Below are positions 8,179-26,427 of a stretch of 64,000 nucleotides of DNA, piece by piece. Numbering within the stretch: the first letter of the stretch is position 1; each line of letters opens with the position of its first letter. The notes under the pieces are model-generated. The model searched no databases. It saw only the letters and a list, made by a program, of their open reading frames with translations, and was not told the DNA's origin. The position numbers and the translations under genes were made by a program. Source of the stretch: a virus; IMG/VR virus record IMGVR_UViG_3300029319_009496, positions 5,872-69,871 of that record, one strand, 5' to 3'.

Positions 8179-8179
8179 T

Positions 8180-10158: not shown

Positions 10159-10159
10159 A

Positions 10160-11011
10160 ATGAAAGACATAATATTCATAGCTGATTTTTTTTCTAATCA
10201 ACATACAGGTGGAGCTGAATTACACGACGATGTTGTTATAAAATATTTTAATAATACTAACAGGCTATTTGCAAAAGTTAATACTTCAAATCTTACAGAA
10301 CAATTCATAGAAGATAATTTAAATAAAACCTGGTTTATATCAAATTTTGTTGGTCTTAGAAATACACATAAAGCTATTTTGGCTAAAAAATGTAAATATT
10401 TAATTTATGAACATGACTATAAATTTATTGATGCAAGAAATCCAATATTTTTTGAAGATTTTAAAGTGCCACAAAAAAACTTTGTTAATTTAAGTTTTTA
10501 TCAAGCTGCAAAAAAAATAATATGTTTAAGCAAAATGCATCGAGATATTTTTGATAAAAATTTACAGCTTGATAATATAGTTAATATCAATTGTAGTATG
10601 TGGCATGATGAAGATTTAGAACTATTTGAAAGTCTTCAAAATCAACAAAAAATTAAAAAATTTGCTGTAATCGAAAGCAACAATAAAATTAAAAAAACCA
10701 AAGAGTCTGTTGAGTTTTGCAAGAAAAATAATCTAGATTATGACTTAATCAGCTCACAAAATTATACTGAATTTATTAATTTATTGTCGAAATACAGTGG
10801 TTTAATTTTTATGACAGGGCATCCTGAGCCTACACCTAGAGTGGCTATAGAAGCAAAAATGTTAAATATGAAGTTTGTATCTCAAAAAGATTTAATTGGG
10901 GTTGCTCATGAAGAATATTTTTCTTTAAGTGGACAAAGCTTAATTGATGAGGTAAAAAATATGAGAGACGAAGCATTAGAAAAAATAATTGGCTGGATTG
11001 ATGAAGCATAA
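10160..11011 (+). CDS. GT-B-fold glycosyltransferase-like protein
   Basis: This is a 283-residue protein with a glycosyltransferase-like opening FIADFFSNQHTGGAELHDDV and a donor-site-like C-terminal part MTGHPEPTPRVAIEAKMLN, in which Glu and Pro-Thr-Pro-Arg replace the usual GT4 EGF segment. It is shorter than normal GT4 enzymes (350-420). It may lack part of one Rossmann domain or be a compact version. Function by similarity of layout only. It overlaps the next gene by 11 bp. Confidence 0.65.
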   Translation: MKDIIFIADFFSNQHTGGAELHDDVVIKYFNNTNRLFAKVNTSNLTEQFIEDNLNKTWFISNFVGLRNTHKAILAKKCKYLIYEHDYKFIDARNPIFFEDFKVPQKNFVNLSFYQAAKKIICLSKMHRDIFDKNLQLDNIVNINCSMWHDEDLELFESLQNQQKIKKFAVIESNNKIKKTKESVEFCKKNNLDYDLISSQNYTEFINLLSKYSGLIFMTGHPEPTPRVAIEAKMLNMKFVSQKDLIGVAHEEYFSLSGQSLIDEVKNMRDEALEKIIGWIDEA

Positions 11012-11705
11012 TATTTTAACAGTTGCAAATGAAAATTATTCTTCTTTTATAAAATTGTTTATTAATTCATTATTTGAGCTAACAGATCTTAAAATGGTAG
11101 AAAAAATATATGTTTTTGATACCGGTCTAAGCGAAGAAACTAAAAAGCATTTAAATTATTTTCCAAAAATTGAAATAATGGATACTGGCATGCAGATATC
11201 ATCAGATAAAATACATGATGATGGATGGAAAAAAAACACTTACTCAAAAACAAAATTTTTATTGTCTATTTTACAAAAAACAAATTTGCCTACTTTTATG
11301 ATTGATTCAGATTCTATTTTTGTTGATAATTTTCAAGACTTAATTGATTGGAATGCTGATTTAGTTGCTTGTGATAGAAATAGAGATGGTTTTTCGAAAC
11401 ATATAGGATCTTTTTTTGGTGCTATTAATGTAGATCAAAGTATCACTTTCATAGAAAAATGGATAACAAATATTAGCAAACTGCAAAGGACCACTGATTT
11501 AAAACATTGTGAAAGTCCAGCTTTATCTTTAACAATTGAATCTGAAAATTTTAATGTACAAAATTTACCGGAGCAAATTGTATCTGCTGTTTTTCCTGAT
11601 GAAACATCTAGAGTTTTTCATTTAAAATCAGATTACTATGCCCTCACAGTTGAAGAAAGATTATCTTTAAAACACGCAAAACAATTTACGCAGAGGTACC
11701 TGTAA
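11001..11705 (+). CDS. GT-A-like glycosyltransferase (DxD)
   Basis: From ATG 11001 (a TTG at 10989 would add four residues and overlap more) the gene encodes 234 residues. The N-terminal strand HNILTVANENYSSFIKLFINSLF is typical of GT8-like sugar transferases that start with a nucleotide-binding strand. MIDSDSIFVDNF gives the DxD metal motif, and ACDRNRDGFSKHIGSFFGAINV matches the acceptor-side pattern of such enzymes. The sugar is unknown. The gene is tightly coupled to both neighbours (11-bp and 1-bp overlaps). Confidence 0.7.
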   Translation: MKHNILTVANENYSSFIKLFINSLFELTDLKMVEKIYVFDTGLSEETKKHLNYFPKIEIMDTGMQISSDKIHDDGWKKNTYSKTKFLLSILQKTNLPTFMIDSDSIFVDNFQDLIDWNADLVACDRNRDGFSKHIGSFFGAINVDQSITFIEKWITNISKLQRTTDLKHCESPALSLTIESENFNVQNLPEQIVSAVFPDETSRVFHLKSDYYALTVEERLSLKHAKQFTQRYL

Positions 11706-12418
11706 TGTTAATGTCGGTTGTTATTTCTACTTTTAATAGGTCAGATGTTTTAAAACAAAACTTAGATTGTTTTAAAAAACAAACTGATATGGATTTTGAA
11801 GTTGTAGTTGGTATTGATGGCTCAACTGACGACACTATTGAAATGTTGAAAAACTATGATTCTAATTTTTCAATTAGATGGGTTGATACTTTAGAAACTA
11901 AAGATTATTGTTTAGCTAAAGCTAGAAATATGGCAATGATAGAGTGTAAGGGAGAAGCAATAGTTATTTTAGATGATGATAGTTTTCCGGTTGAAGGCTT
12001 TATTCAAGCACATAAAAGTAGTGTTAAAAAAGGAGTTTTAACTGGAGGCTATAGAAACTCACATGACCCAAGTGATTCTTTACATGCAAAAATGAAAAAA
12101 ACACTATTAAAATATGGCATTCGAAAAGAAAATCCTATAGTTGAAAGAATAGTTGAGAACAATTGTTGTATGCTAACTAAAGACTGGATTGGATGTGGTA
12201 TGTTTTCAGAAAGATTTGTAGGATACGGAGGTTGTGGGCAAGAATTCATAGCAAGGCTGGCTTATCAGGGCTTTAAATATCAATTTAATCCAGATGCAAT
12301 GATGTATCACCATAGAGAGTTTGAGGGTGATAACGGTCTTACTAGAGATATTAAAAATCAACAAGCATCAAAATCGATTGCAATGATTAATAAGCATTGT
12401 TGGAGTTATTATGCCTAG
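11705..12418 (+). CDS. Family 2 glycosyltransferase
   Basis: The 237-residue protein shows the GT2 series in order: VVISTFNRSDVLKQNLDCF, GIDGSTDDTIEML, AKARNMAM, then the metal-binding triple aspartate VILDDDSFPV. In the second half, ERFVGYGGCGQEFIARLAYQG matches the galactosyltransferase/chondroitin-polymerase-like C-terminal motif with the catalytic-base Glu. It is an inverting transferase of the cytoplasmic type with no membrane segment. It shares 8 bp with the aminotransferase gene. Confidence 0.88.
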   Translation: MLMSVVISTFNRSDVLKQNLDCFKKQTDMDFEVVVGIDGSTDDTIEMLKNYDSNFSIRWVDTLETKDYCLAKARNMAMIECKGEAIVILDDDSFPVEGFIQAHKSSVKKGVLTGGYRNSHDPSDSLHAKMKKTLLKYGIRKENPIVERIVENNCCMLTKDWIGCGMFSERFVGYGGCGQEFIARLAYQGFKYQFNPDAMMYHHREFEGDNGLTRDIKNQQASKSIAMINKHCWSYYA

Positions 12419-13223
12419 TGTCATTAGAGATATATTTGAAGACTATGTCAAGAAAACTTATGATCTACAAGACTGTATCGCAGTTAATAATGGTACTAGT
12501 GCCTTAATAGCTCCGCTATGGTCAATGGATTTGCAGCCTGGTGATGAGGTTATAACAACACCTTTTACTTTTATCGCCACTTCAAACGCTATTCTTATCG
12601 CCGGCGCAAAACCAGTTTTTGTTGATATTGATCCTAATACTTTGTTGATCGATCCACAAAAAATTGAAAATGCGATAACTAAAAATACAAAAGCCATTAT
12701 TCCAGTACATCTTTATGGAAGAGTTTGTGATATGGAAAAGATAAACAATATTGCAAAAAGACACAATCTTGTTGTAATTGAAGATACGGCACAAGCATTT
12801 GGGGCAACCTGCCACTGCGGTAATCATGCAGGTATGATGTCAGATGTAGGAACTTTTAGTTTTTACAAAACCAAAAACATTTCTACTTTTGAGGGCGGAA
12901 TGATATGTATACCAAAAAATTCTAAGCTAGATCATGAAAAGATTAGGTCAATATGCGACCAGGGTCAAGTTGGAAAGTATAATCATGAATATATTGGATT
13001 TAACTTTAGACTAGCTGAGCCATTATGTTTAATGGCATATGAACAAATGAAGCTTCATATGGAAGGAGTCAAAGCCGAGCTTGGTTTTAGAGGTCCAGAA
13101 AAAGGTCATTACCCAAATGTAGTTTATGAACAGCCAATTTATGTAAAGAAAGGTATATCAGGTGACTGCCCAATTGCAGAAAAAGTGGCTAAATCAATTA
13201 GAGAAAAAACTTATGACATATAA
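12411..13223 (+). CDS. DegT/DnrJ/EryC1-type sugar aminotransferase, compact and possibly inactive
   Basis: The first 200 residues are clearly a PLP-dependent nucleotide-sugar aminotransferase: VNNGTSALIAPLW, GDEVITTPFTFIATSNAI, VIEDTAQAFGA and SFYKTKNISTFEGGM with PLP lysine at about 155. Members are normally 360-390 residues; this one has 270. It lacks about 30 N-terminal residues. After AYEQMKLH it jumps within roughly 30 residues to the late motif CPIAEKVAKSI, so most of the small C-terminal domain is missing. No frameshift is seen. The truncation overlaps the start of the next gene by 11 bp. It may work as a compact or heteromeric enzyme, or be a decaying gene. The Gfo/Idh oxidoreductase next door would be the usual partner in making 3-amino sugars. 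Confidence 0.85.
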   Translation: MPSVIRDIFEDYVKKTYDLQDCIAVNNGTSALIAPLWSMDLQPGDEVITTPFTFIATSNAILIAGAKPVFVDIDPNTLLIDPQKIENAITKNTKAIIPVHLYGRVCDMEKINNIAKRHNLVVIEDTAQAFGATCHCGNHAGMMSDVGTFSFYKTKNISTFEGGMICIPKNSKLDHEKIRSICDQGQVGKYNHEYIGFNFRLAEPLCLMAYEQMKLHMEGVKAELGFRGPEKGHYPNVVYEQPIYVKKGISGDCPIAEKVAKSIREKTYDI

Positions 13224-14217
13224 TATAGGTGTTGTTGGGTGTGGAAAAATTTTTTCTCGTCATTTTGAAGCAATTAATCAAAATAAAAAATATAACCTAG
13301 TAAGTGTTTGTGATACAGACGAACTGACACTGTTAAATATTAGAGTGCCAAAAAATGTAAAAAAGTATAAAAATTATAGAAATATGATAGATAAAGAGGA
13401 TATTAATTTTGTTGTAATTGCAAGCCCAAATGCTTTTCATTTTGATCATTGCATCTATGCACTTGAAAACGGATGTGACGCTCTTATAGAAAAGCCGGCA
13501 GTATTAAATCCAAAAAATTTAGATATTTTGCAGACAGTTGCTAGTAATCATGAGCAAAAAATTTACGCTGTACTGCAAGTTAGACTTAATCCAGCCGTGC
13601 AAAATTTAAAATATTTAATCGATAATAATTTAATAGGTGGAATAAGAGGTTTTAATCTAACACAAAGGTGGCAAAGACCAAAAGAATATTTTGATGATTG
13701 GCGAGGCAAGCCAAAAATTGGTGGAGGCATATTGCATGAGTGCGGTATTCATTATCTAGATATTCTTTGTTATTTACTTGGAAAGCCAAGTGTTGCCCAT
13801 GCTAAAACGTATAATACTAAGCATAAAAATGTTGACATTGAAGATACGTTATATGCTAATTTAGATTTTGGTGAATATGGTGGCAATATAGAAATAACAA
13901 TCGCTAGCGAGCCACATAATTTAGAATGTAGCCTTAGTTTACTAACGGATATAGGTTATATTAAATTAGGTGGAAAAGCAATGAATGTTGTAGAAGATAT
14001 AAAATTTAATAGTGAAGAAAAAACTATACAGATAAATAATTTTATGAATTTTAATAATAAAATTGTTAGCCCAAACTCTTATGGATCTTATGCAGGATCT
14101 TGTCCAAATCATCCAAATTTATATAATAATATTGAAAATTTTAATTTACAAGAAACAAAAAAAGTGTTACAGTTAATAACTGAAATATATGATTATTGTA
14201 AGATACAATATTTTTAG
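13213..14217 (+). CDS. Gfo/Idh/MocA-family oxidoreductase
   Basis: From ATG 13213 the protein has 334 residues. The Rossmann motif NIGVVGCGKIFSRHFEAI is at the very N-terminus, which decides the start; an upstream ATG at 13162 would add 17 residues out of the family pattern. EKPAVLN holds the conserved Lys of the EKP motif, and GGGILHECGIHYLDIL contains the His/Asp active-site helix. Such NAD(P)-dependent enzymes oxidise nucleotide sugars, commonly at C3, as the step before a DegT aminotransferase. The upstream neighbour fits that pairing. The substrate is unknown. Confidence 0.88.
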   Translation: MTYNIGVVGCGKIFSRHFEAINQNKKYNLVSVCDTDELTLLNIRVPKNVKKYKNYRNMIDKEDINFVVIASPNAFHFDHCIYALENGCDALIEKPAVLNPKNLDILQTVASNHEQKIYAVLQVRLNPAVQNLKYLIDNNLIGGIRGFNLTQRWQRPKEYFDDWRGKPKIGGGILHECGIHYLDILCYLLGKPSVAHAKTYNTKHKNVDIEDTLYANLDFGEYGGNIEITIASEPHNLECSLSLLTDIGYIKLGGKAMNVVEDIKFNSEEKTIQINNFMNFNNKIVSPNSYGSYAGSCPNHPNLYNNIENFNLQETKKVLQLITEIYDYCKIQYF

Positions 14218-14226
14218 AGGCAAAAA

Positions 14227-15126
14227 ATGAGTAAGCTAAATGCTTGTATAGTTTATATTTCATCTAGAAATAGGTGTGTTGAGCATAGTTTAAAAAGTTT
14301 ATGGGATATGTATAATAAGAATTATGATTATCCTGTTTATGTGCATTATTTCGATGATATATACGATTCTATAGATGTTCAAAAAAGAATTACAAGGCAT
14401 AATAAACAAAAAGTTATATTTAAAAAAGTGCCCTATAGAACTCCATCTTTTATAGCAGAATCAGATTTATATTACAACAGAACAAATCTTTGGTATGTTG
14501 CAAGAAGTTTTCCCATACAAAGAAAAGGTTACTTACATATGTGTAACTTTACTAGTAATATGTATGGCTATGAAAATACAGAATTACATGAGTATGATTA
14601 CATTATGACTCATGATGATGAGGCTGGATATGAAAAGCCTATACAAAAAGATCCATTTGAAATTATAGCCAATCAAAAAGAATACATTGGAGCTTATGAC
14701 GTAGGACAAAGGTTAAAAAATGGCCACCCACATCAAGGACATAAAGATACTAGAGTTGGTCTGTGGGAATTTACTAAAAATTTTTTGTTGCAAAATAATA
14801 TAAAACCAAGCTCAAAAATATTACAAAGTCTATTAGAAGATCCTGAAGCAGAAACAAGATATCATTATATTAAATGGTGCGATACATATGTAATTAAAAC
14901 TGAGGTTTTTAAAACTAGCTTATGGAAAAAATGGATAAATGCTGTGAATGAGAGTGGTGGTATATATAAGCATAGGTGGGGCGATAATGAAATTATGACT
15001 TTTTTTGCTTATATTATACAACAAAAAATATATAACTTAGACCTTGTTAAAACTGGCTTTCACAATCAAGGTATGTTTAGGCATATTCAAAACTATGCGC
15101 CGAGCGTAAAAAATTCAAATTTATAA
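14227..15126 (+). CDS. GT15-like glycosyltransferase (Kre2/Mnt1 mannosyltransferase family)
   Basis: The 299-residue protein follows the motif order of fungal GT15 alpha-1,2-mannosyltransferases. YPVYVHYFDD is at 35-44 and FKKVPYRTPSF at 65-75. YDYIMTHDDEAGYEKPIQ is at 123-140, at the site of the family's EPD metal-binding motif. KDPFEI follows, then YIKWCDTYVIKTEVF, and GGIYKHRWGDNE at 244-255 matches the family's GGFYYERWGDAP signature. A late GFHNQ corresponds to the GYHH motif. Unlike yeast enzymes it has no N-terminal membrane anchor, so it should be cytoplasmic. A GT15-like gene in a phage is unexpected. The call rests on motif order, since I could not run a profile search. Confidence 0.72.
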   Translation: MSKLNACIVYISSRNRCVEHSLKSLWDMYNKNYDYPVYVHYFDDIYDSIDVQKRITRHNKQKVIFKKVPYRTPSFIAESDLYYNRTNLWYVARSFPIQRKGYLHMCNFTSNMYGYENTELHEYDYIMTHDDEAGYEKPIQKDPFEIIANQKEYIGAYDVGQRLKNGHPHQGHKDTRVGLWEFTKNFLLQNNIKPSSKILQSLLEDPEAETRYHYIKWCDTYVIKTEVFKTSLWKKWINAVNESGGIYKHRWGDNEIMTFFAYIIQQKIYNLDLVKTGFHNQGMFRHIQNYAPSVKNSNL

Positions 15127-15136
15127 AACAAATTAT

Positions 15137-16120
15137 ATGAAAGTTTTAATTATCGATCCAAGAGTTCACACTTCCTTATCAAAAACATATAAGCATTATG
15201 ATTATTTATATGATGAACTAAAAAAATATACCGATTGTTTTCTATATCAGTCAATAAATTTTAACAATATTTATGAACCTTTGACACATGTTAGAGAGCA
15301 GGGCTTTAATCCAGATATAATATATTTTGGGATGGGCTATTTTGCATTAAGTCCCCCTTATTTTTCGAAAAATTTAAAAACAGAAGATATTGATATACCA
15401 TGTGTAGGGTTTTTATACAAGCCTCAAAATTTCTTATCAGAAAAATTAAATTTTTTAAAACAATTTACTGCAGCAATTTCATCCATACCAAATTGTAAAG
15501 AATATGAAAAAACAACTGGTATAGAATTTAAGGTTCTCTCCCAGGCAGGAGATGAAAAAGTTTTCTATGATAGAAAATTAGAAAAAATATATGACATTGG
15601 TTTTAGTGGAGCACTGCATGATAATAAGTTGTATGTTGAAGGTGCTTTTAAATCATTTAATATACGATCACGAGCACAAGAAATATTGTTGAAAGAAAAA
15701 AATTTGTCTACTTTTTTAAACGGATCTGACGACGCGTCGAAAAGACTACCAACTTATGAAGAGTATGCAAAAAAAATAAATCAATGTAGAATGTGGATAG
15801 CCACCCCAGCACCTTTTGAGGAAATAACTGGTAGATATTATGAAATAGGCATGTCAAACACTTTATTATTTTGTAGCGAAATACCTAAAATATATGAAAC
15901 TATTTTGGTTGATGGAAAAAATTGTGTAACTTTTGATAATAATTTAAACAATTTTTTAGATAAGTTTTATTATTATTTAAATAATTGGCAAGAATCAGAA
16001 AAAATAATAAGCAATGCGTTTCAAGATTTTCACAATAATCATACATGGGACAACAGAGCGCAGCAATTATATAGATATTTTAAAAAAATTTTAGAGAGGA
16101 AATATGAGAAACAACATTAG
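15137..16120 (+). CDS. CgeB-like glycosyltransferase
   Basis: The 327-residue protein resembles the CgeB/Glyco_trans_1_2 group. It has an N-terminal Rossmann-like part (KVLIIDPRVHTSL, NPDIIYFGMGYF), a middle IYDIGFSGALHDN strand-loop typical of CgeB relatives, and the donor-site segment APFEEITGRYYEIGMSNTLL with the conserved Glu and Arg. C-terminal helices carry the NHTWDNRAQQLYRYF ending seen in the group. It overlaps the dehydrogenase gene by 17 bp. Confidence 0.8.
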   Translation: MKVLIIDPRVHTSLSKTYKHYDYLYDELKKYTDCFLYQSINFNNIYEPLTHVREQGFNPDIIYFGMGYFALSPPYFSKNLKTEDIDIPCVGFLYKPQNFLSEKLNFLKQFTAAISSIPNCKEYEKTTGIEFKVLSQAGDEKVFYDRKLEKIYDIGFSGALHDNKLYVEGAFKSFNIRSRAQEILLKEKNLSTFLNGSDDASKRLPTYEEYAKKINQCRMWIATPAPFEEITGRYYEIGMSNTLLFCSEIPKIYETILVDGKNCVTFDNNLNNFLDKFYYYLNNWQESEKIISNAFQDFHNNHTWDNRAQQLYRYFKKILERKYEKQH

Positions 16121-17207
16121 CATTATTGGCATAGGTAAACTTGGTTTATGTTTTTCTTTAACTTTAGAAAAGTCTGGATATAATGTCTTAGGAGTTGATA
16201 TATCAGAAGAATATGTTAACAAAATAAACGATAAGACTTTCAAGAGTGATGAAAAAAATGTAGAGCAGCTTTTACTAAAAAGCACAAATTTTAAAGCTAC
16301 TACATCACTTGCAGCTGCGCTAAACCACTCAAATAATATTTTTGTTTTTGTAGCAACACCTTCATTGAAAAATGGAAGATACGATCATTCTTCAGTAGAT
16401 AAGCTTGTACAAGACCTCAAAAATTTTGGATTTCAAAAAAATAAAAAACATTTGATTATTGGATGTACAACAATGCCAGAATATTGTGATACAGTACAAG
16501 ATCGTTTAAATAAATACAATTATGAGGTTAGTTATAATCCAGAATTTATTGCGCAAGGAACTATTTTAAAAGACCAAGCAAATCCTGATATGGTTCTTAT
16601 TGGCCAGGCCTCAGAAGAAGCTGGTGATATTTTAGAAGAAATATATATTAAGCACACTCTTAATAACCCACGTATTCATAGGATGACCAGAACAGAGGCT
16701 GAAATATGTAAAATATCTTTAAACTGTTTTTTAACGACTAAAATAGCATACGCTAATATGATAGGTGATATAGCTTTATCTGCGAAATCAAGGCCAGAAA
16801 AAATATTGTCTGCGATTGGTAGTGATAGCAGGATTGGCGGCAAGTATTTAAAATATGGATTTGGATATGGAGGCCCTTGTTTTCCTAGAGATAACCGCGC
16901 TTTAGCTATATTTGCTAAAGATAAAAATTCACAAGCATTGATAAGTATAGCTTCTGATGATAGTAATAAATTACATTTAAAAAATCAAGTAAATCATTTT
17001 TGTGAAAATCAAAAAATCTCAGAACCGGTTATATTTGATAGTGTCACCTACAAACCAGAGTCGACTATGTTAGAAGAATCACAACAGCTTTTTTTTGCAG
17101 TTGAAATAGCAAAAAAAGGTTACAATGTTACGATTAGAGAGAGAGAAGAAGTTATAAAACAAATTAAAAAAAATTATGGGGATTTGTTTAAATATGAATT
17201 ACGATAA
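16104..17207 (+). CDS. UDP-glucose/GDP-mannose-type dehydrogenase
   Basis: This 367-residue NAD-dependent enzyme oxidises the C6 alcohol of a nucleotide sugar to the acid in two steps. GIGKLGLCFSLTLE gives the NAD site and YNPEFIAQGTI the second family motif. The catalytic cysteine is Cys259 in YGGPCFPRDNRAL. A C-terminal nucleotide-binding domain is present but shortened (VTYKPESTMLEESQQL). The product could be UDP-glucuronate or GDP-mannuronate; sequence does not decide. It overlaps the NAD synthase gene, an unusual and perhaps meaningful neighbour because this reaction consumes two NAD per sugar. Confidence 0.9.
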   Translation: MRNNISIIGIGKLGLCFSLTLEKSGYNVLGVDISEEYVNKINDKTFKSDEKNVEQLLLKSTNFKATTSLAAALNHSNNIFVFVATPSLKNGRYDHSSVDKLVQDLKNFGFQKNKKHLIIGCTTMPEYCDTVQDRLNKYNYEVSYNPEFIAQGTILKDQANPDMVLIGQASEEAGDILEEIYIKHTLNNPRIHRMTRTEAEICKISLNCFLTTKIAYANMIGDIALSAKSRPEKILSAIGSDSRIGGKYLKYGFGYGGPCFPRDNRALAIFAKDKNSQALISIASDDSNKLHLKNQVNHFCENQKISEPVIFDSVTYKPESTMLEESQQLFFAVEIAKKGYNVTIREREEVIKQIKKNYGDLFKYELR

Positions 17208-17949
17208 AGATAAAATAGTAGAGTGGCTATTAGAAAAATGTAACGACTCTAATTGCAATGGTTTTGTTGTTGGTGTTTCTGGCGGTGTTGATTCAGCTCT
17301 TACATCGACACTGTGTGCCCATACAAAAAAACCTGTTATTGTAGTTGGGATGCCTATTAACCAACAAATTGATCAACTTTCTAGATCACAAAAGCACATG
17401 GATTGGTTGTGTGATATTTTTCCTAATGTTAAACAAAAAACATTTGATCTTTCTAAATCTTTTGAAATATTTTCGAAAGCAGTTGAGTGCAGATCTAAAT
17501 TAGCACTAGCTAATTTTCAATCAAGAATGCGAATGGCTGCTTTGTACTCAGTTGCAAATACAAATAATATGTTAGTTGTTGGCACTGGAAACAAAGTTGA
17601 AGATTATGGTATAGGTTTTTTCACTAAATATGGTGATGGTGGTGTTGATTTAAGTCCTATAGCAAATCTTTTAAAATCACAAGTTAAAAATTTAGCAGTG
17701 AAACTTGGTGTTATATCTGAAATAACTAATGCAACACCTACAGATGGCCTTTGGGAAGATAATAGGAGCGATGAAGATCAAATTGGTGCTTCTTATGAAG
17801 AATTAGAATGGGCGTTGCAATATTATGATAAACATAAAAAACAAAATTTTAACTTAACTGATAGACAAAAGGATGTTCTTGAAATTTATTCTAAAAGACA
17901 TTTAGCTAATAAACATAAATTAACAATGCCGCCCGTTTGTGAGTTGTAA
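17194..17949 (+). CDS. nadE: NAD synthase, ammonia-dependent type
   Basis: This is a 251-residue PP-loop ATPase with the NadE signatures. SGGVDS at 29-34 is the pyrophosphate loop. GTGNKVEDYGIGFFTKYGDG and GVDLSPIANLLKSQV follow, and PTDGLWEDNRSDEDQIGASY is characteristic of true NAD synthases rather than asparagine-synthase-like proteins. No glutaminase domain is present, so it would use ammonia to amidate deamido-NAD. I chose ATG 17194, preceded by GGGGA; ATG 17176 adds six residues. The gene sits inside the glycan cluster directly after an NAD-using dehydrogenase. Supplying NAD to sugar oxidation, or refilling NAD drained by host defence, are both possible. Confidence 0.9.
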   Translation: MNYDKDKIVEWLLEKCNDSNCNGFVVGVSGGVDSALTSTLCAHTKKPVIVVGMPINQQIDQLSRSQKHMDWLCDIFPNVKQKTFDLSKSFEIFSKAVECRSKLALANFQSRMRMAALYSVANTNNMLVVGTGNKVEDYGIGFFTKYGDGGVDLSPIANLLKSQVKNLAVKLGVISEITNATPTDGLWEDNRSDEDQIGASYEELEWALQYYDKHKKQNFNLTDRQKDVLEIYSKRHLANKHKLTMPPVCEL

Positions 17950-17954
17950 AGCAT

Positions 17955-18644
17955 ATGAGTATTATGAAAAAATATAAAAAAAAGTTTCACATATTCAAAG
18001 ATTTATTAGCAAAAGAAAATCCTGTTATAGTTGAAATTGGCGCTCATTTTGGTGAGGATTCAATGAGGTTTTGTGAAGTCTTTAAAGACCCTACAATTTA
18101 TTGTATTGAGCCTGATCCCAGATGTATAAAAATATTTAAAAAGCATGTTAAAAATAAAAATATCAAACTTTATGAAGTAGCTTTTTCAGATAAAAATGGA
18201 GAAATGAATTTTTACCAAAGCTATAAGCCAAATGAAATAAAAACTCCAGAAAAATATAATTGGATTAGTGACGATGATTATAAAAAATATAAACTCGGTA
18301 ATTCTGGATCTTCATCATTAAAAAAAGGATATAAACATATTTTAGATGAAACAATAAAAGTGCAAGTTGTAAGATTTGATGATTGGGCAGAACAAAATAA
18401 TATAGAAAAATTAGATTTAGCTTGGATAGATGTGCAAGGATCAGAAAAAAATGTATTGACAGGTATGGGTGATAGCATACATAAAATAAAATATATTTGG
18501 ATTGAATATGGTGAAAAAGAATATGAAGGAGCAATGTCTAGGCAAGAAACAATAAGCTATATGGCAGATAAAGGCTATCAAGTTATTAATTTTATGTCTA
18601 GTTTTTCTGATAGTGGTGACTTAATGTTTGAGAGCGTAAAATGA
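17955..18644 (+). CDS. FkbM-family methyltransferase
   Basis: The 229-residue protein has the FkbM pattern. The SAM site is IVEIGAHFG at 25-33, followed by an acidic YCIEPDPR. VAFSDKNGEMNFY and SSSLKKG lie in the middle, and the late motif LDLAWIDVQGSEKNVLTGM is diagnostic for the family. FkbM proteins O-methylate sugars and natural products, and are common in surface polysaccharide clusters of marine bacteria and phages. A second in-frame ATG at 17964 could be the start. It overlaps the sulfotransferase by 4 bp (ATGA), which suggests coordinated methylation and sulfation. Confidence 0.9.
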   Translation: MSIMKKYKKKFHIFKDLLAKENPVIVEIGAHFGEDSMRFCEVFKDPTIYCIEPDPRCIKIFKKHVKNKNIKLYEVAFSDKNGEMNFYQSYKPNEIKTPEKYNWISDDDYKKYKLGNSGSSSLKKGYKHILDETIKVQVVRFDDWAEQNNIEKLDLAWIDVQGSEKNVLTGMGDSIHKIKYIWIEYGEKEYEGAMSRQETISYMADKGYQVINFMSSFSDSGDLMFESVK

Positions 18645-19336
18645 AAATTTTGTATATACACATCCCGAAGACTGGTGGGACTAGTTTTGAAAATGTTTTA
18701 TCAAATTTTAAAAATACAGTTATAACAGAAAATCATCCTATGTATAAAAATCATATTGAATATCATCAAAATATTGGAAATGTTTTAAATTTTAACTTAT
18801 CCAGAGCAGAACATTTTCGAAAAGTATTAGGTCCAGAATTTTACAATAATGTTTGGTCTATAGCGATAGTTAGAAATCCTTGGGACAGATATGTATCGAA
18901 TTGGAAATGGCTAACTAGAGAATCATGTAAATATAATAATTATACAAAAACTAATGGTGTAGTAACATTTGATACTTTTGTTAAAGAATCAGTTCAATGC
19001 TATAATAGAAATACCATGTATTATGATCATCAAAAGTGGCACATTAGAAATCAACTAGAACACATAACAGACAAATCAAAAAATATAATAGTATCACACG
19101 TTGGAAAGTTTGAAGATTTAGAAAATGAATTTAAAAACCTTTGCTGTAAGGCAAAAATAGATGCACAGTTACCTTATCTAAATTATGATGGCCATTATTC
19201 TGGTGAACAAAAAAAACACGAACCAAAAAAAATTCACTACTCGCAGCACTATACACAAGAATTAGTTGATATTGTTGCAAGAAGATGTAAAGAAGATATT
19301 GAATTTTTTAAATATGATTATGAAGAGATTAATTAA
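18641..19336 (+). CDS. Sulfotransferase (Sulfotransfer_2-like)
   Basis: The 231-residue protein has both PAPS-binding motifs of carbohydrate sulfotransferases. The 5'-phosphosulfate loop HIPKTGGTSF is at 7-16 and the 3'-phosphate site RNPWDRYVSNW at 78-88. The length and motif positions fit the Sulfotransfer_2 group that sulfates polysaccharides, but no membrane anchor is present. PAPS could come from the APS kinase encoded at 23362-24093 in the same cluster. The acceptor is probably the glycan built by the surrounding transferases. It overlaps the next gene by one base. Confidence 0.9.
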   Translation: MKILYIHIPKTGGTSFENVLSNFKNTVITENHPMYKNHIEYHQNIGNVLNFNLSRAEHFRKVLGPEFYNNVWSIAIVRNPWDRYVSNWKWLTRESCKYNNYTKTNGVVTFDTFVKESVQCYNRNTMYYDHQKWHIRNQLEHITDKSKNIIVSHVGKFEDLENEFKNLCCKAKIDAQLPYLNYDGHYSGEQKKHEPKKIHYSQHYTQELVDIVARRCKEDIEFFKYDYEEIN

Positions 19337-20175
19337 TGGGAAATGTAACTGTACAATTAACAAACGGTTTTGGAAATAATATTTTTCAATATGTTGCAGC
19401 GCGCTTATTAGCTGAACACCATAATAGTGAGCTTTGTGCAATTCCACCACATGACAAATATTATGCAATTAATGACCTATCAACTTTAGGTATTAAATTT
19501 ATTAATCATAAATATCAAAAGCAAAATTCATTTTTAATAAGTGAAAAAAATTATCTTGAAGCTTTTTCAAAAAATTATTCTGATGCCGATTTATTGTTGA
19601 ATGGTTATTTTGAAGATTATACCTATTATTTTAAACATATAGAAAAAATAAAAAGTTGGTTTCCTAAGCAACAAGTAAGAAACAACAATGATCTTGTAAT
19701 ACATATGCGAACTGGCGATAGGCTTTTTATGAAAAATGAATTTTATTCAAAACCCAGAGCTATGAATTATTTACGAGCAATAAATAAATTTGAATTTAAT
19801 CAACTACATATTGTAACTGATATGCCAGTTTGGGACTATGTTACAGAAAATGATTTAAAAAACTTTAAATTTCATGTTAATATAGCAGAAAATAAAAGAG
19901 TGCCTATTGCTGAATCAGTTAAATATTTTAATGAAATTGTTGAGGCGTTTTCTTTTTACTCCCCGATTATAAAAAAAAGAGGTATATTAGAAGATTTTAA
20001 TCATATTAGGAGCTTTAAAAATATTTTATTTGAACATGGAACATTGTCTTGGTGGGCAGCAGTTTTGAGTTCTGCAAAAAAAGTGGGCGTCTATGGTCCT
20101 TGGCGTCCTTGGAAGGCTGAAAAAAATAAAAACTTAAGTGACATACCAATTGATACTTGGTTTAAGTGGGAATAA
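19336..20175 (+). CDS. GT11-like (alpha-1,2-fucosyltransferase-type) glycosyltransferase
   Basis: The 279-residue protein starts with a GT11-type motif GFGNNIFQYVAARLLAE (11-27). It contains LLLNGYFEDYTYY, like the GYFQS segment of these enzymes. The fucosyltransferase motif I is HMRTGD at 123-128, whose Arg binds the GDP-sugar phosphates. The late SWWAAVLSSAKKVGVYGPW matches the family's SxFSWWAAYL region. The donor in the family is usually GDP-fucose. No GDP-fucose synthesis genes are seen here, but the epimerase at 21484 would make the closely related GDP-L-galactose, which is a possible donor. Confidence 0.82.
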   Translation: MGNVTVQLTNGFGNNIFQYVAARLLAEHHNSELCAIPPHDKYYAINDLSTLGIKFINHKYQKQNSFLISEKNYLEAFSKNYSDADLLLNGYFEDYTYYFKHIEKIKSWFPKQQVRNNNDLVIHMRTGDRLFMKNEFYSKPRAMNYLRAINKFEFNQLHIVTDMPVWDYVTENDLKNFKFHVNIAENKRVPIAESVKYFNEIVEAFSFYSPIIKKRGILEDFNHIRSFKNILFEHGTLSWWAAVLSSAKKVGVYGPWRPWKAEKNKNLSDIPIDTWFKWE

Positions 20176-20176
20176 T

Positions 20177-20755
20177 ATGAAAAATAAACATCTAGATTTT
20201 TGGCAAGAGGACTGTACAATTGATAAATTTAAGTCTTGGTGTCATAAAGATACAGAGTGGAAAAATTATGTTTTACAACAAATATTAGAAGTAAACTCAA
20301 CAAGTGTTTTAGATATTGGTTGCGGCACTGCACACATGGGAGAGAAATTAAAATCTATTAGTCCAAAAATAAAATACGTTGGAACAGAAATAACAAAAAA
20401 GTTTGTCGAATATAATAAAAAAAATAATTTTAATTGCATCGAAAACGATATGGTTGTTTTACCATTTCAAGACAATGAGTTTGATACAACAATATGTTTA
20501 GATGTTTTAAATCACCAAATAGAATATGAAAACAAAATTTTAGAAATGTTAAGAGTCACAAAAAAAAAGTTAATAATTAGTTTTTTCAAATCATGGGAGA
20601 GGCAAAATAGAATAGTAGAAAAGCATAAAAATTTAATCTATCATCATTTTTCTTTACAAAATTATGAAACTTTTTTAAGAAAAAATAATTTACAATACAA
20701 ATTTTTAGATTTAAATTTAGCGGTAAATCCAAAAATATTAATCATAGAAAAATAG
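20177..20755 (+). CDS. Class I SAM-dependent methyltransferase (Methyltransf_11-like)
   Basis: Starting at ATG 20177, two bases after the previous stop, the gene gives 192 residues. Starting at the upstream in-frame ATG 20138 would overlap the GT11-like gene by 38 bp for no gain. Motif I is VLDIGCGTAHMG at 44-55, motif II is the acidic GTEIT, and motif IV is FDTTICLDVLNHQ. The C-terminal half is short and Lys-rich. The substrate is unknown; the location points to a sugar or lipid-linked glycan. Confidence 0.82.
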   Translation: MKNKHLDFWQEDCTIDKFKSWCHKDTEWKNYVLQQILEVNSTSVLDIGCGTAHMGEKLKSISPKIKYVGTEITKKFVEYNKKNNFNCIENDMVVLPFQDNEFDTTICLDVLNHQIEYENKILEMLRVTKKKLIISFFKSWERQNRIVEKHKNLIYHHFSLQNYETFLRKNNLQYKFLDLNLAVNPKILIIEK

Positions 20756-20763
20756 GATAAAAA

Positions 20764-21471
20764 ATGAATGAATTAAAAAAACTTGGTATTAAACATAGAA
20801 CTGATAAAGCTTATCGTCATTTTTATATGGATGAAGTATATTTTCCACTTTTTAAAAATTTAAAACAATCTAAAATTAAAATACTAGAAATTGGCTGTGG
20901 TCGTTTTGGAGGCTCTGTTAAAACTTGGAAAGATTTTTTTATAAATGGCAGTGTTTATCTTTTTGATCCGTTTTTTATAAGAGGACAAGATGAAATTGGT
21001 CCTTTTAATGGTGATAAACAAGACATTGAAAAATATGGAATTACTGTAATACAAGGTAATCAATTAAGCAGGGAGGATCTTGCTAGCGCCTCTCAATATT
21101 GTGAGGATGGATTTGATTTTATAATTGATGATGGTGCTCATATGAACGATGCAATTCAAATTTCACTAGCATCTTTATTTCCTTTTTTAAAACCAAAAGG
21201 TTGTTATATTATTGAAGATTTGAATACTGCTAGAAGAAGAACTCCAGAAGATGTTAATCACTGGTTAAATAATTCTGAAAACGTTTTTTGTGATGAAAAA
21301 ATATATCACAAAGATGAAATTCATATACTTGATAGTATAAAGCAATATGAAGATGATAAAACTTGGAACTCTAAACTTCTATCACAAAAAGAAAAAAATT
21401 ATTTAACAGATAATATTTCTAATATTTCAGTTCATCCATCTGAAATGATATGTTTAATAAACAAAAAATAG
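20764..21471 (+). CDS. Class I SAM-dependent O-methyltransferase (rhamnosyl O-methyltransferase-like)
   Basis: The 235-residue protein opens with LGIKHRTDKAYRHFYMDEVY, close to the KIGTDK-H-Y opening of the macrolide and tetracenomycin sugar O-methyltransferases (TylE/ElmM type). It continues with the SAM motif LEIGCGRFGGSVKTW at 41-55. FIIDDGAHMNDAIQ supplies the metal-binding Asp pair and catalytic His of this group, and LKPKGCYIIEDL follows. It is therefore probably a Mg-dependent sugar O-methyltransferase. A GGATAAAA leader precedes its ATG. Confidence 0.82.
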   Translation: MNELKKLGIKHRTDKAYRHFYMDEVYFPLFKNLKQSKIKILEIGCGRFGGSVKTWKDFFINGSVYLFDPFFIRGQDEIGPFNGDKQDIEKYGITVIQGNQLSREDLASASQYCEDGFDFIIDDGAHMNDAIQISLASLFPFLKPKGCYIIEDLNTARRRTPEDVNHWLNNSENVFCDEKIYHKDEIHILDSIKQYEDDKTWNSKLLSQKEKNYLTDNISNISVHPSEMICLINKK

Positions 21472-21483
21472 TAAGGAACAAAA

Positions 21484-22491
21484 ATGAAAAAAGTATTAAT
21501 ATGTGGAGCCGGCGGCTTTATTGGTGGACATCTTGTTAATTATTTAATAAATAAAGGATTTTGGGTTAGAGGGGTTGATTTAAAATACAATGAATGGCAA
21601 CCGGTGCATCAAAAAGCTAATGAATTTATAATAGGAGACCTGAGAGATCCTAATCTAGTTGAAAAAGTAGTCACTAGTGATATTGATGAAATTTACCAGC
21701 TAGCTGCTGACATGGGTGGAGCCGGCTTTGTTTTCACAGGTGAAAATGATGCAGATATAATGCATAATTCTGCTCTTGTTAATCTTAACATAGCACATGA
21801 AGCTTCGAAAAAGAATATAAAAAGAATTTTTTATTCTTCATCAGCATGCATGTACCCCGAACATAATCAGCTAGATCCAGATAATCCAAACTGTGTAGAG
21901 GACTCTGCCTATCCTGCAAATCCTGATTCTGAGTATGGGTGGGAAAAGCTTTTTTCTGAGAGAATGTTTTTGTCTTTTTTAAGAAATAAAAATTTACAGG
22001 TGCGTATAGCGAGATATCATAATATTTTTGGAGAATATGGATCTTGGACTGGGGGAAGAGAAAAAGCGCCTGCTGCATTTTGTAGAAAAGTCGCTGAAAC
22101 TCCAAATGGTGGAAAAATTGAAGTTTGGGGGCCAGGTAATCAAACTAGATCTTTCTTGCATGTTGACGAGTGTGTTGAAGCAACTTATCGTTTAATGCAG
22201 TCAGATTTTACAGGACCAGTTAATATTGGATCTGAAGAAATGATATCAATCAATGAATTTGCACAAATGGCAATAGACATATCTGGTAAAGATCTTTCAA
22301 TCTACAATATTGATGGTGAAGATTTTTTTGCAAAATATGGTCATAAGTGTCCAGTTGGTGTTAATGGTCGTAACTCAGATAATAATCTTTTTAAAGAAAA
22401 AATAGGCTGGGTTGTTTCAGAGCCGCTAAGAAAAGGGATGGAAAGAACCTATGAGTGGATAGAGAGCCAAGTAAGGGGCAATAATGGCTAA
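21484..22491 (+). CDS. GDP-mannose 3,5-epimerase-like SDR enzyme
   Basis: The 335-residue extended SDR has the NAD motif GAGGFIG at 8-14. It also has the specific active-site residues of GDP-mannose 3,5-epimerase: Cys122 in SSSACMYPE, Tyr151-Lys155 in YGWEK, and Lys194 in GGREKAPAAF. LAADMGGAGFVF and VGVNGRNSDN are further hallmarks. The enzyme converts GDP-mannose to GDP-L-galactose or GDP-L-gulose. It is best known from plant ascorbate synthesis and is uncommon in bacteria. Here it would supply an L-sugar donor to the cluster's transferases, the GT11-like one being a good candidate. It overlaps the next SDR by 8 bp. Confidence 0.88.
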   Translation: MKKVLICGAGGFIGGHLVNYLINKGFWVRGVDLKYNEWQPVHQKANEFIIGDLRDPNLVEKVVTSDIDEIYQLAADMGGAGFVFTGENDADIMHNSALVNLNIAHEASKKNIKRIFYSSSACMYPEHNQLDPDNPNCVEDSAYPANPDSEYGWEKLFSERMFLSFLRNKNLQVRIARYHNIFGEYGSWTGGREKAPAAFCRKVAETPNGGKIEVWGPGNQTRSFLHVDECVEATYRLMQSDFTGPVNIGSEEMISINEFAQMAIDISGKDLSIYNIDGEDFFAKYGHKCPVGVNGRNSDNNLFKEKIGWVVSEPLRKGMERTYEWIESQVRGNNG

Positions 22492-23365
22492 ATGTTTAGT
22501 AACGGGCCATAAAGGTTATATTGGCACTAAACTTTTTAATAAATTAAAAAAAGATGGGCATGAAGTATTAGGAATTGATTTAAAAAGTAAAGAATCAATG
22601 GACATTCTTTATTATTTAAAAGAAGATTCAGATGGAAAGTTTCATCCATTGTTTTGGAATTTTCAACCAGAATATATTTTTCATATGGCATGTTTTCCTC
22701 GGGTGGGCTTTTCTATAGAAAATCCAGTGTCTACAATGAAAAATAATGTTTTAATAGGCTCATACGTATTAAATTTTGCCAGAAAATGTCCGTCTGTAAA
22801 AAGACTAATATATTCTAGCTCCTCATCAGTTGTTGGAAATGGAGAAGGACCAACTAGTCCGTATGCGCTTCACAAATATACAACTGAAGTTGAATGTAAA
22901 ATATATTCAAGAATATATAATTTAGATACAGTTTCTCTTAGGTACTTTAACGTTTACTCAGAAGATCAAAAAACTAATGGTGCATATGCTACAGCTGTAT
23001 CAAATTGGATGCATCATATAAAAACAAATCGCAAGCCTTTTATTACAGGTACAGGCGAGCAGAGAAGAGATATGATTCATGTCGACGATGTTATATCTGC
23101 TAACATTTTTTGCATGAATAGAAAACAAAATTTTCATGGGCATCATTTTGATGTTGGTACAGGTAAGAATATTTCTTTAAATGAAATAAAAAATATAGTT
23201 CAAAAATATCATAACGTAGAATTTAATTATATTGAATCTAGACCAGGTGATGTACAATTTACTAAAGCTGATATATCTAAGCTTAAAGAAATAGGTTGGT
23301 CCGCAAAAACATCTATTTGTGATGGCATTAATAATTGTTTTAAAAATTTAGTAAGTGAAAAATGA
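22484..23365 (+). CDS. NAD-dependent nucleotide-sugar epimerase/dehydratase (GalE-like SDR)
   Basis: The 293-residue extended SDR has TGHKGYIG at 7-14 for NAD binding. The catalytic serine stretch YSSSSSVVG is followed by Tyr127-x3-Lys131 in SPYALHK. RYFNVYSEDQ and RRDMIHVDDV are the usual C-terminal substrate-side motifs. It resembles UDP-glucose 4-epimerases and related 4,6-dehydratase/epimerases. At 293 residues it is somewhat short because the segment after FHMAC is compact. The exact sugar is not decidable. The gene overlaps the APS kinase fusion by 4 bp. Confidence 0.87.
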   Translation: MAKCLVTGHKGYIGTKLFNKLKKDGHEVLGIDLKSKESMDILYYLKEDSDGKFHPLFWNFQPEYIFHMACFPRVGFSIENPVSTMKNNVLIGSYVLNFARKCPSVKRLIYSSSSSVVGNGEGPTSPYALHKYTTEVECKIYSRIYNLDTVSLRYFNVYSEDQKTNGAYATAVSNWMHHIKTNRKPFITGTGEQRRDMIHVDDVISANIFCMNRKQNFHGHHFDVGTGKNISLNEIKNIVQKYHNVEFNYIESRPGDVQFTKADISKLKEIGWSAKTSICDGINNCFKNLVSEK

Positions 23366-24093
23366 TTGATACTAGCAAAAGAAGCATTACAAAAGCTATA
23401 ACATGGAAAAGTTTAGGATTTTTTATAATATCTTTGCTTTCTTATGCGGCGACTAAATCTGTAGAAAAAACTTTTTTTGTAGCGCTAACGTATCACTTTA
23501 TAATGCTTTGCTTGTTCATTATACATGAAAAATTATGGAATTTTATAAAGTGGGGAAAGACAAGTGGTTTGTTTATTCAAATGACAGGATTATCAGGAGC
23601 AGGCAAAACTACTTTGGCTAGCCTAGTTTCAAAAAGTTTGTCTAAAAAAGGAATTTTAGTTGAGGTCATCGATGGGGATGAATATAGAAAAGAATTGTGC
23701 GAGGATCTTGGTTTTTCTAAAAAAGACAGACAGGAAAACATTAAAAGACTATCGTTTGTTGGTAAGGTTCTCGGACGTAATAATGTTGTATGTATTATGT
23801 CTGCCATTAATCCTTATAATTCTACAAGAGATAAAATAAAAAAGTCTGTGCCTGATTCAAGATTGGTATATATAAAATGTAGTTTAGATGAGGTAATAAA
23901 AAGAGATGTAAAGGGGTTATACAAACGTGCACTCCTGCCAAAAAATCATGAGGACCATATACCTAATTTTACTGGCATATCTGATCCATTTGAAGAACCA
24001 ACACAGTCAGATTTAGTTTTGCAGACTGACGAGTTATCATTAAAGCAGGCAGCTGCTAAGTTAGAGAAATATATTTTAAAACAAATTAAATAG
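23362..24093 (+). CDS. cysC: DUF2061-APS kinase fusion (makes PAPS)
   Basis: The 243-residue protein has two parts. Residues 1-65 match DUF2061: RSITKAITWKSLGFFIISLL, then a second hydrophobic helix ending HEKLWNFIKWGK. They should place the protein at the membrane through two helices. Residues 70-243 are an adenylylsulfate kinase with P-loop GLSGAGKTT at 76-84, DGDEYRKELCEDLGFSKKDR, ENIKR, RDVKGLYKRAL and NFTGISDPFEEP. The enzyme phosphorylates APS to PAPS, the donor for the sulfotransferase at 18641. No ATP sulfurylase is visible in the window, so APS must come from the host or from phage genes elsewhere. Confidence 0.92.
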   Translation: MIDTSKRSITKAITWKSLGFFIISLLSYAATKSVEKTFFVALTYHFIMLCLFIIHEKLWNFIKWGKTSGLFIQMTGLSGAGKTTLASLVSKSLSKKGILVEVIDGDEYRKELCEDLGFSKKDRQENIKRLSFVGKVLGRNNVVCIMSAINPYNSTRDKIKKSVPDSRLVYIKCSLDEVIKRDVKGLYKRALLPKNHEDHIPNFTGISDPFEEPTQSDLVLQTDELSLKQAAAKLEKYILKQIK

Positions 24094-24100
24094 GTGTAAT

Positions 24101-24931
24101 ATGAAATCAGTAGGAGTAGTAGGTCAAGGTTTTGTTGGCCAAGCAGTAAAAGAAGGGTTTGAATCTTTCTATAAGATAGAGACATATGATAAATTTAAAC
24201 ATTCTACTTGTGAGTCAATTCAAGATTTATGTGAAAAAACAAAAACTATCTTTGTATGTGTTCCAACACCAATGAGAAAAGATGGATCTTGCGATACTAG
24301 TATCGTAAAAGAAGTTGTTTACGAAATAAACAGATTTGCAAAAAATCATATATTAGTTATAAAATCTACTGTGCCTCCTGGTACAACTGAGGTTTTAAAT
24401 AAAGAATGTGAAAATCTACAGGTTGTTTTTAATCCTGAATTTCTCACAGAAGCTAATTTTTTAAATGATTTTAAAAATCAAAATAGGATTATAATTGGTG
24501 GACCTAGGCCGGCATCAACAAAAATTAAAAATTTATATACTAAAGTATTTCCAAATGTGCCTGTAATAAAAACAGGATCATCTACCGCTGAAATGGTAAA
24601 ATATTTTACAAATTGTTTTCTAGCGGTAAAAGTTAGTTTTGCAAATGAATTCAGACAATTTTGTGAACAAGTTGATGTTGATTATGATAAAGTAGTAGAA
24701 TATGGATTACATGATCTAAGATTAGGAAAAACTCATTTTGCAAGCCCAGGGCCAGACTTAAAATATGGTTTTGGTGGATCATGTTTTCCAAAAGATATAA
24801 ATGCTTTAATACAATTTGCAAAAAAATTAAATATTAATCCTGTTGTATTAGAGGCTGCTTGGAAAAAAAATCTAGAAGTAAGACCTGAGAAAGATTGGGA
24901 ACAATTAAAAGGTCGCGCTGTCAGTGAATAA
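24101..24931 (+). CDS. Short UDP-glucose/GDP-mannose-type dehydrogenase
   Basis: The 276-residue protein has the NAD motif GVVGQGFVGQAV, then VPTPMRKDG, KSTVPPGTTE and FNPEFLTEANFL. The catalytic Cys228 lies in YGFGGSCFPKDINAL. It ends soon after the middle domain, so the C-terminal nucleotide-binding domain found in 400-residue relatives is absent. Short versions of this enzyme are known from phages. It is distinct from the 367-residue enzyme at 16104. Two such dehydrogenases may act on different sugars, or the pair may be partly redundant. It is the last gene of the glycan cluster, 16 bp before a strong ribosome-binding site. Confidence 0.85.
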   Translation: MKSVGVVGQGFVGQAVKEGFESFYKIETYDKFKHSTCESIQDLCEKTKTIFVCVPTPMRKDGSCDTSIVKEVVYEINRFAKNHILVIKSTVPPGTTEVLNKECENLQVVFNPEFLTEANFLNDFKNQNRIIIGGPRPASTKIKNLYTKVFPNVPVIKTGSSTAEMVKYFTNCFLAVKVSFANEFRQFCEQVDVDYDKVVEYGLHDLRLGKTHFASPGPDLKYGFGGSCFPKDINALIQFAKKLNINPVVLEAAWKKNLEVRPEKDWEQLKGRAVSE

Positions 24932-25393: not shown

Positions 25394-25769
25394 ATATGTA
25401 TTATTAATATCAATTATTCTTAACGGAATATTGTTAGCAATTATATTTGGTATGATACCATTTCTATTGTATATAAGCGTTATAATAAACGTTATTATGA
25501 TATGGTATACCAGTAAATGTTTACTAACAATAAATAATTTAGAGAATGATATGGTGCAACTTTTAGAAAGCAATGAACAGTTTTTACAAAACCTAGAAGA
25601 AATATATTCATTGGAAATGTATTATGGAGATGAGCATATTCAAAATTTAATTGATGAATCTAGATTGCTTATTAATGAGTTTATTGATGTTCAAGAAAAA
25701 TATTTTGATGTTGAAGTAACAGAAATGGAACAAGATGAAGAAGACGAGACGGCCCCGCAAGAAAAATAA
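25368..25769 (+). CDS. Membrane protein with cytoplasmic coiled-coil tail
   Basis: The 133-residue protein has two adjacent hydrophobic helices in residues 8-50 (YVLLISIILNGILLAIIFGM and a second one ending WYTSKC). A long acidic helical region follows (LENDMVQLLESNEQFLQNLEE) with a Glu/Asp-rich tail. It has the shape of a small inner-membrane protein with a coiled-coil domain. No family recognised. A spanin or holin role is not supported, as there is no lysis gene beside it. It overlaps its neighbours by 26 bp and 35 bp. Confidence 0.65.
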   Translation: MNFINQISKYVLLISIILNGILLAIIFGMIPFLLYISVIINVIMIWYTSKCLLTINNLENDMVQLLESNEQFLQNLEEIYSLEMYYGDEHIQNLIDESRLLINEFIDVQEKYFDVEVTEMEQDEEDETAPQEK

Positions 25770-26427
25770 TTATTTTACAAAAGTTCATGAACAGGCAATC
25801 ATTGATTATGCTCTTACTAATGATATAAAAATTAGAACAGAATTATATATTCAATTAATACAACCTGCCTTTAACGAAATGGTAGACAAAATTGTCTATA
25901 CATATAAATTTAATAATTTACCAAACATTGATTATCTTAAAGATGATTGCAAGCTATGGCTTATCACAATTTTAGACAAATATGACCCTAATAGAAAATC
26001 TAAAGCTTTTTCTTATTTTAGTGTTATAACTAAAAATTGGTTTATTCACAAAGTTAAACAAAACTCTAAAAAACTTAAAAGAGATTTACAATATGAAAAT
26101 CTAAACAATGAAACTGAATTAGAAGAATTTATTGTAGAAAATACTTATGAGCAAGATAGAGAAAAAAAAGAGTTTTGGGAACATTTATTTTCTGAAATGG
26201 ATAAATGGGAAAAAATGAAACTTCGTGAGTCAGAGAAAAAAGTATTAGATGCTATAAAGATACTTTTTAACAGCACTCAGGATATAGAAATTTTTAATAA
26301 AAAAGCTATTTATTTATACATGCGTGAAATTACCGGTTTAAATACAAAACAAATTGTTAATAACTTAAATAGAATTAGAAAAAGATACAGGATTTTTAAA
26401 GTAGAATGGGAAAAAGGAAACATATAA
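25735..26427 (+). CDS. Late-transcription sigma factor, T4 gp55-like
   Basis: The 230-residue protein has a basic N-terminus followed by a sigma region 2-like core: YLKDDCKLWLITILDKYDPN, KAFSYFSVITKNWFIHKVKQ. Then come an acidic linker and a C-terminal helical part ending in a helix-turn-helix-like segment (TGLNTKQIVNNLNRIRKRYR). The core matches the gp55 family of T4-like phages, which direct host RNA polymerase to TATAAATA late promoters. T4 gp55 is 185 residues, so this one is longer. It lies directly upstream of the virion genes it would be expected to switch on. Confidence 0.82.
   Translation: MKKTRRPRKKNNYFTKVHEQAIIDYALTNDIKIRTELYIQLIQPAFNEMVDKIVYTYKFNNLPNIDYLKDDCKLWLITILDKYDPNRKSKAFSYFSVITKNWFIHKVKQNSKKLKRDLQYENLNNETELEEFIVENTYEQDREKKEFWEHLFSEMDKWEKMKLRESEKKVLDAIKILFNSTQDIEIFNKKAIYLYMREITGLNTKQIVNNLNRIRKRYRIFKVEWEKGNI

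Follow-up and report, generated by a model that had tools for sequence, protein, structure and literature searches.

Glycan cassette and its genomic context

The window, i.e. the whole 64,000-nucleotide stretch of DNA analysed here, is part of an 81,704-base (81.7-kb) IMG/VR record of a marine phage and carries a sulfotransferase gene and, 4 kb away, a gene coding for an APS kinase fused to a DUF2061 domain, which raises the question of whether the phage provides the sulfate donor PAPS itself and uses it to sulfate a glycan during infection. By their coordinates the two genes lie on one strand and in a common cluster; the spacing and the cluster agree with the original prediction. The cluster is a cassette of about 18 kb, encoded on the plus strand only, with ORFs which mostly abut or overlap and code for glycosyltransferases, nucleotide-sugar dehydrogenases, epimerases, an aminotransferase, methyltransferases and an NAD synthase. 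Conserved phage genes border it: PhoH and a PD-(D/E)XK nuclease at one end, T4-type baseplate genes and a conserved sigma-like gene at the other. The virus record carries a T4-type baseplate wedge gene, and the cultured phages that come nearest in their baseplate and sigma-like proteins (about 30% identity) are Flavobacterium phage immuto and Microcystis phage Mel-JY01. The features referred to below are the following:

6925–24931, plus strand: glycan cassette holding the kinase and sulfotransferase genes (Pfam, PHROG and NCBIfam matches)
16104–17207, plus strand: nucleotide-sugar (UDP-glucose type) dehydrogenase (TIGR03026 over cut-off)
17955–18644, plus strand: FkbM-type methyltransferase, whose gene overlaps the 5' end of the sulfotransferase gene (PF05050, 5e-20)
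18641–19336, plus strand: Sulfotransfer_2 (PF03567) sulfotransferase, 231 aa (Pfam and PHROG profiles)
18659–18688, plus strand: HIPKTGGTSF, 5'-phosphosulfate-binding loop, residues 7–16 (sequence)
18872–18904, plus strand: RNPWDRYVSNW, 3'-phosphate-binding motif, residues 78–88 (sequence)
19336–20175, plus strand: glycosyltransferase-like protein, immediately 3' of the sulfotransferase (PHROG 2644, 1.6e-10)
21484–22491, plus strand: GDP-mannose 3,5-epimerase-like enzyme (phmmer, 3.2e-86 to 2c59)
22484–23365, plus strand: NAD-dependent sugar epimerase/dehydratase (PF01370, 6.4e-44)
23362–24093, plus strand: DUF2061-APS kinase fusion, 243 aa (PF09834 and PF01583 over cut-off; TIGR00455)
23386–23541, plus strand: DUF2061 domain, residues 9–60 (PF09834, 6.7e-7; two predicted helices)
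23566–24021, plus strand: APS kinase domain, residues 69–220 (PF01583, 7e-45)
24101–24931, plus strand: second nucleotide-sugar dehydrogenase, immediately 3' of the kinase (TIGR03026 over cut-off)
25735–26427, plus strand: conserved phage gene, called sigma-like from reading alone and without a Pfam match (at least 589 viral relatives)

Judging by its similarity, the GDP-mannose 3,5-epimerase-like protein would be expected to yield GDP-L-galactose. The NAD synthase (NadE) gene of the cassette is located at 17176–17949 and is present in the kinase-less relatives L232, L289 and L297 too. Outside the cassette, a CDS on the minus strand, opposite to its neighbours (2749–3501), appears on by-eye reading to code for a protein with a lipoprotein-like signal and, after it, a motif of trypsin-like proteases (TAAHVC ... 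GGSSGSP), and three giant ORFs among the structural genes (32289–44108, 48369–54218 and 54255–59879, coding for 3939, 1949 and 1874 aa, respectively) have no PHROG match.

Sulfotransferase and DUF2061-APS kinase

The sulfotransferase matches PF03567 over profile positions 10–252 of 252 with an E-value of 1.2e-16 (62.1 bits against a cut-off of 22) and PHROG 3347, 'Galactose-3-O-sulfotransferase', with 3e-17; together with both PAPS-binding motifs this places it in Sulfotransfer_2, in agreement with the carbohydrate-type sulfotransferase originally read from HIPKTGGTSF and RNPWDRYVSNW. Lys10 of the former motif and Arg78 and Ser86 of the latter are invariant in the alignment of phage Sulfotransfer_2 sequences (alignment A4). 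The predicted model is of moderate quality (pLDDT 73), and its top matches among solved structures are nearly all sulfotransferases, all of them weak (first match at an E-value of 1.5e-3, none below 0.001). The phage sequences of this family are diverse (20–27% identity), so the acceptors may differ from phage to phage. A search for close relatives with the sulfotransferase itself returned one weak locus, which, along with an alignment without conserved stretches, indicates that sulfotransferases turn over quickly here, and linkage was therefore tested by Pfam families instead of close relatives.

The fusion protein scores 153.2 bits with PF01583 (cut-off 21.1) and 167.7 bits with TIGR00455 apsK (equivalog cut-off 138.7) and contains a full APS kinase domain with the P-loop and substrate-binding motifs, the set being GLSGAGKT, IDGDEYR, LGFS..DR..NI.R, AINPY..R, KGLY and NFTGIS, invariant across 24 aligned sequences. 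The I-N-P-Y motif has an Asn, typical of the lineage, where most APS kinases have Ser (I-S-P-Y). The N-terminal part is assigned to DUF2061 by PF09834 (30.1 bits against a cut-off of 23.1) and by the predicted model (pLDDT 81.5), in which putative helices 5–31 and 34–64 precede the kinase. The best solved-structure matches of the model are APS kinases (5cb8, E-value 1.2e-14), and the enzyme is thus an APS kinase by family and by fold, which bears out the earlier reading of a kinase with all main motifs fused to a two-helix DUF2061 domain.

Kinase-sulfotransferase linkage in phages

Relatives of the window's kinase were found in 30 viral loci, with a weak 31st match. A sulfotransferase was recorded if PF00685, PF03567 or PF13469 matched with an E-value of 1e-3 or lower; PF03567 or PF13469 alone underestimated the linkage, the count rising when PF00685 was added. 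So defined, sulfotransferases are present in 25 of the 32 kinase-bearing phage records (over the curated cut-off in 23 of the 25), on the same strand as the kinase and mostly less than 8 kb away from it, with record G009 possessing three. Four of the seven negative records end close to the kinase, and the contigs are mostly fragments.

An unbiased sample was composed of 50 records chosen solely by the flanking sigma-like gene. Five of them carry the kinase, and a sulfotransferase is present in 5/5 records with it versus 3/45 without it (Fisher p = 2.6e-5; 1.7e-4 with one of two near-identical records removed). The pair does, therefore, occur in other phage genomes, where the original prediction had suggested looking for it. 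Neither of the outcomes named there as fatal to it, a lack of co-occurrence or best kinase matches outside the APS kinases, was observed. When the comparison was limited to loci possessing two or more cassette-like genes, the values were 5/5 with the kinase versus 2/37 without it (p = 2.5e-5), ruling out that the co-occurrence merely results from a shared need for a glycan cassette; the link is thus specific and not a by-product of glycan genes. The three kinase-less records with a sulfotransferase imply that PAPS supply by the phage is not obligatory. The recurrent pairing in many phages suggests that a glycan is sulfated during infection.

In the 462-kb sequence LR756500.1 from an uncultured phage, about 21 kb separate an APS kinase gene (112830) from a Sulfotransfer_2-like gene (134035).

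DUF2061 as a partner of the kinase

Each of the 14 kinase-bearing records that were scanned almost completely encodes DUF2061, even the two in which the kinase is unfused, whereas just one of 73 sigma-anchored loci lacking the kinase does so. It occurs as an N-terminal fusion in phages, as a C-terminal fusion in Bacteroidota and as a separate gene, and the reversed fusion in Bacteroidota rules out that fusion to DUF2061 is an oddity of phages. That the partnership recurs in such varied layouts speaks for the membrane domain being important to the pathway. With its two predicted helices, DUF2061 plausibly tethers the kinase to the membrane. It might be more than an anchor, e.g. help sulfate entry or link the kinase with a glycan-assembly complex in the membrane, which would be compatible with a phage sulfation pathway and which we consider rather unlikely: the charged and aromatic residues R7, K11, W15, H55, E56, W59 and W64, invariant across the 17 phage DUF2061 fusions in the alignment (the window's included), speak for such a wider role, as do the varied arrangements and the presence beside unfused kinases, while no paper on the biochemical function of DUF2061 was found in the literature search.

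Cellular relatives and the sulfate acceptor

The viral kinases form one group in 98% of bootstrap trees, and most of the cellular kinases found to be closest to them belong to Bacteroidota. A sulfotransferase is encoded in 51–55 of about 80 cellular kinase loci, adjacent or fused to the kinase in 43, values which describe the habit of this subclass and not APS kinases at large, as the set was gathered via the phage-kinase motifs. In Chitinophaga japonensis, the APS kinase and a Sulfotransfer_3 domain are fused in one ORF (L095:9941–11386). Three Bacteroidota loci have the reversed fusion, APS kinase followed by DUF2061 (L076:9995–10741, L086:4623–5369 and L088:10019–10777), in a gene row with GDP-mannose dehydratase, an epimerase family member and sulfotransferases, with cysD/cysN nearby. 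These loci resemble the window in the kinase subclass, the DUF2061 partner and the nearby sulfotransferase and differ in the kinase-first order, the accompanying cysDN and the sulfotransferase family, which is Sulfotransfer_1/3 there and Sulfotransfer_2 in the window.

Since sulfotransferases act on many acceptor types, and a sulfotransferase-based DNA modification is cited as reported in phages in PMC10829341, the acceptor could be a small molecule, lipid, protein or DNA base instead of a glycan. We regard this as unlikely given that the sulfotransferase gene is located between those of the FkbM methyltransferase and the glycosyltransferase, that the cassette showed no gene for DNA-base oxidation and that the Bacteroidota relatives of the kinase accompany GDP-sugar genes. 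A glycan, suggested by the content of the cassette, is the preferred acceptor.

Source of APS and use of PAPS

No ATP sulfurylase of the PF01747 family was found in G000 and 23 other records (24 records). A home-made profile, which a very divergent CysH could escape, detected no CysH- or CysD-like protein in the 14 almost completely scanned records with the kinase, and CysN was not detected in the phage records scanned whole (phmmer and home-made profile). Matches to CysH, CysD and CysN by phmmer and the home-made profile came only from bacterial loci and reference sequences, and the marginal Cys-type match L382:15691–16005 belongs to no Pfam family. The CysH which would accompany the kinase in an assimilatory sulfate reduction module was thus not found in the 14 records, nor was the ATP sulfurylase domain or neighbour of a PAPS synthetase (no PF01747 in the 24 records, and no CysD or CysN). 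As no ATP sulfurylase was found, APS in the window's phage must be supplied by the host, barring an unrecognised enzyme.

Most likely, PAPS here serves sulfation, whereas the usual reading of viral cysC would have it serve cysteine synthesis. The alternative, in which the kinase supplies cysteine as an auxiliary function in assimilatory sulfate reduction and the nearby sulfotransferase is unrelated, follows the published view of phage cysC, which includes its high transcription in a lake (PMC10914622; PMC9529941), and is very improbable for this group, where no PAPS reductase or CysD-like protein accompanies the kinase in the nearly whole scans, its presence strongly predicts a nearby sulfotransferase and it sits among glycan genes.

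NadM-like nucleotidyltransferase beside phage APS kinases

During the search for an APS source, a NadM-like HxGH nucleotidyltransferase of about 135 aa was noticed which adjoins most phage APS kinases (e.g. L023:9591–9992, L018:12889–13287 and L419–L497). Searched on its own in viral contigs, it was found in 80 loci; 77 of these encode an APS kinase no more than 3 kb away (70 of them at 50 bp or less), 63 have DUF2061 nearby and 49 a sulfotransferase. Nucleotidyltransferase-kinase fusions occur in some phages, in L054, L055 and L075, and in bacteria such as Acidobacteriota. Among solved structures, archaeal NMN adenylyltransferases come closest (3e-7), and the protein scores below every curated NMNAT cut-off. 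A role in NAD synthesis together with a NadE like that of the window was rejected, as no such NAD synthase is present in any of the 80 loci. The simplest guess at its function is that the protein may act as an ATP sulfurylase of compact type.

Whole-record scans of the window's own clade (G000, G001, G003, G004 and G080) showed no such nucleotidyltransferase, so it provides context and is not part of this locus. Tentatively, DUF2061, the APS kinase, the nucleotidyltransferase as an ATP sulfurylase of a new type and variable sulfotransferases might constitute a dedicated, previously undescribed phage module, of which the window would be a reduced form without the nucleotidyltransferase; we hold this to be possible, with the odds somewhat against it.

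The APS kinase ORFs L434:5036–5995, L436, L438 and L440 have a C-terminal extension, with a HAD-like motif (DFDGVIH) in L434, and separate DUF2061 and nucleotidyltransferase genes on both sides.

Proposed pathway and comparison with known systems

The enzyme families with their signature motifs, the recurrent linkage and the lack of a detected PAPS reductase or ATP sulfurylase make a phage-borne branch leading from APS via PAPS to a sulfated glycan the probable explanation. In this branch, host ATP sulfurylase would form APS, which the phage DUF2061-APS kinase would convert to PAPS, probably at the inner membrane, and the phage sulfotransferase would then transfer sulfate to a sugar built by the surrounding cassette. 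The sulfated product would be either a polysaccharide on the infected cell's surface or a virion glycan, and the by-product PAP would be cleared by host enzymes. The benefit to the phage, we infer, could be e.g. a block to superinfection or receptor masking.

A dedicated PAPS supply combined with a sulfotransferase whose acceptor is a glycan or lipid is known from NodPQ/NodH in rhizobia and CysNC/Stf in mycobacteria, which are cellular systems with ATP sulfurylase subunits and without DUF2061. Among viruses, the Megavirinae encode a predicted ATP sulfurylase/APS kinase and a sulfotransferase in a glycosylation cluster (Moumouvirus ma457/ma461), for which sugar sulfation was proposed (PMC10117803). 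As in the window, the viral APS kinase and sulfotransferase lie within a nucleotide-sugar/glycosyltransferase cluster, but those are giant viruses of eukaryotes with the kinase fused to ATP sulfurylase, whereas the window belongs to a phage with a DUF2061 fusion and no ATP sulfurylase found. The cysC gene is a known auxiliary gene of phages, read as part of assimilatory sulfate reduction in freshwater phages (PMC10914622) and Challenger Deep viruses (PMC9529941); the window's kinase is likewise a phage-encoded APS kinase and differs from these in its linkage to sulfotransferases, the lack of a detected CysH and the DUF2061 fusion. Phage sulfotransferases have been reported as well, with their role left unclear by the source (PMC10580990).

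No paper in the literature searched joins an APS kinase and a sulfotransferase in phages or describes the DUF2061 link. The original statement that no well-described phage system does this consequently holds for phages in that literature and needs qualifying for viruses, given the predicted Megavirinae pair (PMC10117803), and for the components, as cysC and sulfotransferases are each known from phages.

Many surveys count phage cysC as a sulfur-assimilation gene, which needs revision if the kinase serves sulfation. The unexplained phage sulfotransferases (PMC10580990) gain a partner and a testable pathway, the uncharacterised DUF2061 becomes tied to sulfate activation, and a possible new compact ATP sulfurylase is indicated. 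If the proposed pathway is true, sulfated glycans would be a surface trait under phage control, in the ocean as well as in fresh water.
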